Assembly (NCBI GenBank): GCA_021793275.1 | Contig: JAJYTC010000021.1 | Location: forward strand, 1 to 40,131 | Reading direction: 5' to 3' | DNA length: 40,131 nt | Origin: Deltaproteobacteria bacterium | Lineage (GTDB): Bacteria > Desulfobacterota > Syntrophobacteria > Syntrophobacterales > Syntrophobacteraceae | Shown: piece by piece, positions 19,217-19,353 of the stretch | Layout: the number at the start of each line of letters is the position of its first letter | Numbering within the stretch: the first letter of the stretch is position 1 | Notes under the pieces: model-generated | What the model was told of the DNA's origin: nothing | What the model saw: only the letters and a program-made list of their open reading frames with translations | Databases searched by the model: none | Program-made: the position numbers and the translations under genes

Positions 19217-19274
19217 GACGGAGGCATGAGCGATAATTTACGCTATGCCATCCCCGCCGAGGGGGCACTCCGTC
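19217..19274. other. Candidate three-way-junction structured element
   Basis: GACGGAG(19217-23)/CTCCGTC(19268-74) encloses GGCATgAGCG-ataattta-CGCTATGCC and CCCC-gccga-GGGG. Confidence 0.5.
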
Positions 19275-19353
19275 TTTCCGGCCGTTAACCGGCTAATCCC
19301 GATCCTTCAGGTAAGCCACTGAAATTGTGTGGATTAGCTGGTTAACCGGAAAG
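19274..19353. repeat. Long imperfect inverted repeat with nested apical hairpin
   Basis: CTTTCCGGccGTTAACCGGCTAATCC (19274-19299) vs GGATTAGCTGGTTAACCGGAAAG (19331-19353); TTCAG..CTGAA nested between arms. Confidence 0.65.

Follow-up and report, generated by a model that had tools for sequence, protein, structure and literature searches.

MITEs are usually tied to DDE transposases. Among tyrosine-recombinase transposons, a 2023 survey distinguished five groups, namely ICE/IME, SE, GInt, RIT and Tn554 (PMC10214605). In RITs, which are small transposon-like units, terminal inverted repeats, or TIRs, enclose tyrosine-recombinase genes that adjoin and overlap one another (PMC3414803, PMC10214605). 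A 6-bp footprint has been reported for SEs and Tn554 (PMC10214605), and transposition of RITs and GInts has never been seen in the laboratory (PMC10214605). Here, we compare with these systems a hairpin-forming locus in a stretch of 40,131 nucleotides, the whole of which is referred to below as the window.

Genomic setting of the locus

The locus lies between an operon on the + strand, whose last gene is at 18745-19089 and which encodes a redoxin, a cNMP-binding/rhodanese protein, MauE and a small lipoprotein-like protein, and amiS, an AmiS_UreI gene at 19490-20182 on the - strand. The operon is conserved in genomes of the same genus (77% in G004, 73% in G010 and 66% in G002), with the match ending at 19079-19089, and no match to amiS was found in the 39 relatives searched. 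The features of the locus are as follows.

19217 to 19276, + strand: three-way junction, in which GACGGAG/CTCCGTC closes two hairpins; separate from the long hairpin
19226 to 19288, + strand: 20-codon frame MSDNLRYAIPAEGALRLSGR, read from the sequence, overlapping the junction and ending in a TAA formed by the TIR
19278 to 19284, no strand assigned: 7-mer CCGGCCG flanking the unit on the left, presumably a degraded direct repeat
19285 to 19345, no strand assigned: MITE-like unit of 61 bp (TIR, 31-bp core, inverted TIR) that forms the long hairpin; delimited by the G002 homologues, the TIR pair, the equal length and the boundary of full elements
19285 to 19299, + strand: left TIR TTAACCGGCTAATCC, 1 mismatch in 15 to TTGACCGGCTAATCC, the end of a tyrosine-recombinase element in G004 and G023
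19311 to 19326, + strand: core segment GTAAGCCACTGAAATT with the nested TTCAG/CTGAA arm, largely kept in 3 of 3 aligned copies
19331 to 19345, - strand: right TIR, which reads TTAACCAGCTAATCC on this strand, 2 mismatches in 15 to TTGACCGGCTAATCC
19346 to 19352, no strand assigned: 7-mer CCGGAAA flanking the unit on the right, presumably a degraded direct repeat
19424 to 19490, + strand: remnant of an ISL3 transposase C-terminus (ETYFKLRLYHLHTLRFELGG)
20203 to 20237, - strand: inverted 35-bp copy of part of the ISL3 remnant, 97% complementary, on the far side of amiS

A G002 relative of the ISL3 remnant leads into a frame matching DDE_Tnp_ISL3 at 1.6e-12. In the window, amiS stands between the inverted 35-bp ISL3 transposase fragments, and this stretch (19424-20237) is likely an acquired segment. 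Because of the ISL3 remnant and the lack of amiS in the relatives searched, the gap looks like acquired, decayed DNA. A roughly 350-bp stretch in G010:C44 (L008:1501-1857) is bounded by inverted copies of window positions 19397-19440 (TTTCGTACGTCGGAAAGAGGGGTCATG) and is possibly a MITE of an ISL3-like element. Elsewhere in the window, a 67-bp direct repeat (5529-5595 and 7605-7671, 88% identical) carries an internal inverted repeat (CCGCCCACCGGCC...GGTGGGCG).

Folding of the long hairpin and the three-way junction

All the pairings that the earlier note had read from the letters, GACGGAG/CTCCGTC among them, are present within 19217-19353. The 171 nt from 19200 to 19370 fold at -68.5 kcal/mol (z -5.1) as + strand RNA and at -63.3 kcal/mol (z -4.6) as - strand RNA, and none of 200 dinucleotide-shuffled controls folded as well on either strand. 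The hairpin folded alone (19275-19354) gave z -7.0 on the + and -5.7 on the - strand, whereas the three-way junction folded alone (19213-19276) gave z -3.4 on the + strand (1/1000 shuffles as good) and -2.8 on the - strand; the signal of the long hairpin is much stronger, and that of the junction is moderate. Across the 40-kb window, the 66-nt segments starting at 19285 and 19213 ranked second and third of 3339, ranks that are rough, being based on 40 shuffles each. At another place in the window, 4789-4854, which holds GCGGATAGCGGGCTGTCCGC, folding was also far above that of shuffles (z about -5.7, 40 shuffles).

The G-U/C-A asymmetry, which had been taken as a cue for transcription of the + strand, does exist at one position of the long hairpin. 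However, both homologues described below have G-C there; the asymmetry thus reflects one substitution in a single arm and is little guide to which strand is transcribed.

Homologues of the long hairpin

The long-hairpin arms have the TIR sequence TTRACCGGCTAATCC, and from TIR to TIR the palindrome spans 61 bp, in the order TTAACCGGCTAATCC, 31-bp core, GGATTAGCTGGTTAA. An inverted TIR pair of this kind was contained in none of 200 random 40-kb sequences. Family-wide blastn returned one weak match, with the same fold and core, in G002 (Syntrophobacteraceae bacterium bog_1154; 15054-bp contig PLSV01000196.1), a genome of the same genus. A model, R1, was built from the window hairpin and this first G002 copy, and its search of 197 genomes recovered at E 5e-12 a second G002 copy that had not been used in building it.

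The two homologous hairpins, G002:C385 and G002:C184, are 61 and about 60 bp long, one of them matching the window unit exactly in length. In all three copies 16 of the 17 predicted arm pairs form, two of these through substitutions in both partners, and the sequence around TAAG..A.TGAA in the core is conserved. The three hairpins stand in unrelated surroundings with no conserved gene context: one G002 copy lies by a HicB-like gene and a truncated Mu-portal-like frame, and the other by a toxin–antitoxin-like pair, identified by eye only. Between the two G002 copies identity reaches 72% across 189 bp, since 7 bp beyond each there is a further hairpin whose arms resemble the TIR. These tandem pairs of TIR-bounded hairpins, 7 bp apart (L059:14669-14823 and L075:8973-9127), might have arisen when a second small unit recombined at the end of the first.

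Beyond the G002 copies, R1 gave no credible match in the 197 genomes; its matches in G155 and G119 have no TIR arms, and that in G155 is inside a transketolase-like gene. Searches of genome and viral contigs with the palindrome pattern returned Verrucomicrobial palindromes with a different core, matches resembling coding or chance sequence, and the G002 copy itself (L067). In phages and plasmids, blastn found short chance matches only.

An autonomous tyrosine-recombinase element shares the TIRs

With a G002 copy as the query, only the left arm was matched, in G004. A pattern search with the TIR TTGACCGGCTAATCC found six places in G004, none farther than about 130 bp from a contig end; one continuation is shared by three of them and another by the other three, as would be expected for the two ends, left and right, of an element present in several copies. 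By comparison with G023, the right-end continuation reads as the C-terminal tail of a recombinase, with the TAG stop within the TIR. The left ends (C55, C255 and C269) have GCATCG in common just outside the TIR, which recalls the 6-bp footprint that SEs and Tn554 take with them, and the flanks of the right ends (C94, C178 and C267) differ.

The same TIR stands beside tyrosine-recombinase genes in G023, G014, G006 and G002. In G023 it lies about 30 bp from the end of a Phage_integrase protein, and a search with this protein led to a partial element in G002 and to two full ones:

L123, 2747 to 6133: element in G014, 3387 bp, perfect 7-bp repeats CCATGGC/CCATGGC
L124, 2966 to 6227: element in G006, 3262 bp, perfect 7-bp repeats TTGGTTT/TTGGTTT

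Each of these compact Syntrophobacteraceae elements, about 3.3 kb long, encodes a zinc-finger-like and an HTH_36-like protein together with a pair of Phage_integrase proteins. The two recombinase genes overlap, the catalytic residues of both recombinases are complete, and no DDE transposase was found between the ends. The perfect 7-bp repeats place the TIR boundary at the start and end of the 61-bp unit of the window. No match to the HTH protein was found in viral contigs. On the Caballeronia plasmid pSBC1_4 (L126:4520-7648), a relative of it stands directly before IS21 istA/istB; such small genes thus accompany different element types, with two unrelated types of transposase.

Comparison with the named groups of tyrosine-recombinase transposons

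Neither full element, in G014 or G006, fits any of the five groups of the survey. They are most like RITs, with which they share overlapping tyrosine-recombinase genes between TIRs. RITs have three adjacent tyrosine-recombinase genes, whereas the TIRs of the G014 and G006 elements enclose two, and for that reason we do not file the partner element as a RIT. It differs further in that its two recombinases are accompanied by the HTH and zinc-finger-like proteins, and in having a shared TIR core of about 15 bp, against 34 bp reported for RITs. As with Tn554-related elements, SEs and GInts, movement or recombination is ascribed to several tyrosine recombinases, and the 6-bp footprint of SEs and Tn554 is comparable to the 7-bp repeats of the partner. 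In contrast to these three groups, both partner recombinases are of ordinary size, and neither Pfam nor sequence pointed to a protein like Tfp/GinC or Srap/GinD/TnpC. No description of this gene arrangement was found in the literature searched, in which subscription journals were scarcely represented.

The three-way junction

The earlier note had treated the whole of 19217-19353 as a single complex element, a view that gives way to two separate features, as homologues were found for the hairpin only. Neither blastn nor a single-sequence structure model, the latter run against 40 relatives, found any homologue of the junction; the best other match of that model (E 0.2) has a different fold, and a viral match to the first hairpin of the junction (L128) comes without the junction. 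The 20-codon frame overlapping the junction would stay open further without the unit and one flanking 7-mer, and has no Pfam, PHROGs, phage or plasmid match. The junction may be a truncated gene start at the insertion point, older debris or chance.

Discussion

Among the options which had been left open for the locus, the MITE-like one is supported for the long hairpin, with its TIR arms and a unit recurring at two unrelated G002 sites, and the ncRNA and 3' UTR ones are not. We hold it probable, with good confidence, that a compact tyrosine-recombinase transposon gave rise to the long hairpin as a non-autonomous, MITE-like derivative. Like bacterial MITEs, the window unit is short and non-coding, with TIRs common to an autonomous element and dispersed copies, and its 61 bp leave no capacity to encode a recombinase. 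In contrast to them, its partner encodes tyrosine recombinases, and the unit is very short and of low copy number, with direct repeats presumably degraded in the window copy. Against our reading stand the small number of copies, three in two genomes, with a single one in the window's genome and no autonomous partner found there, and the flanking 7-mers, which agree at only 4 of 7 positions. Moreover, the 31-bp core is unlike the DNA just inside the ends of the full elements seen, and simple internal deletion of those particular elements is at most a possible origin. In addition, the genomes compared are bins from metagenomes, of which some have 7-9% contamination.

It is unlikely that the hairpin is instead a palindromic attachment site, the target of tyrosine-recombinase elements whose ends carry the hairpin arms, with no mobile unit involved. 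Tyrosine recombinases do act on inverted arms around a 6-8-bp spacer, the second hairpin in G002 lies 7 bp from the first, and the window arms reach outward (CTTTCCGG/CCGGAAAG), an extension that consists of the flanking 7-mers and a T-rich tract, with a similar tract beside the other copies. However, the sites of the full elements in G014 and G006 are unrelated, and the element ends there show 7-bp direct repeats and no remaining palindrome; the unrelated surroundings of the three hairpins likewise speak against an attachment site.

We consider it very unlikely that the hairpin is a structured RNA, that is, a novel ncRNA, a 3' UTR element or a bidirectional terminator in the convergent gap. 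Folding far above shuffles, the convergent genes on either side and the two pairs kept through changes on both sides would fit such an RNA, but inverted TIRs explain both the pairing and the paired changes. Folding is almost equal on the two strands, gene context is not conserved, and no G+C-rich stem directly before a T-tract, as in an intrinsic terminator, is present at the element; no terminator- or promoter-like site was found there. The earlier statement that the locus matches no nameable riboswitch family agrees with the Rfam scan, which had no match at the gathering threshold and nothing credible at permissive ones. As for an integron-type attC recombination site, the imperfect bulged hairpin, the tyrosine-recombinase link and the single genes and toxin–antitoxin genes nearby recall one, but we give it almost no credence, as GTTAACC in the window and GTTGACC in G002 depart from the core GTTRRRY/RYYYAAC, the associated recombinase scores 46 bits against an integron integrase cut-off of 265, and the full elements bear TIRs at both ends and direct repeats.

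If the long hairpin is a MITE-like unit, the recombinases would bind the TIR together with the 7-bp crossover segment beside it and exchange strands there, and could have moved the short TIR pair of the window in trans. The RNA or single-stranded-DNA hairpin would then be a by-product of two facing TIRs around the 31-bp core. The window copy is probably a relic now, because no autonomous partner element was found in the window's genome and the flanking repeats are presumably degraded. More tentatively, the partner could represent an undescribed group of compact tyrosine-recombinase transposons (zinc-finger-like protein, HTH protein, two recombinases, about 3.3 kb, 15-bp TIR and 7-bp repeats) that spawns and mobilises its own MITEs, with the folded hairpin possibly serving as a substrate; this we regard as possible, though doubtful.

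As a candidate regulatory RNA the locus is closed, the small three-way junction excepted. A MITE-like unit with the TIRs of a tyrosine-recombinase element would, in turn, open non-autonomous transposition by such enzymes to direct testing.
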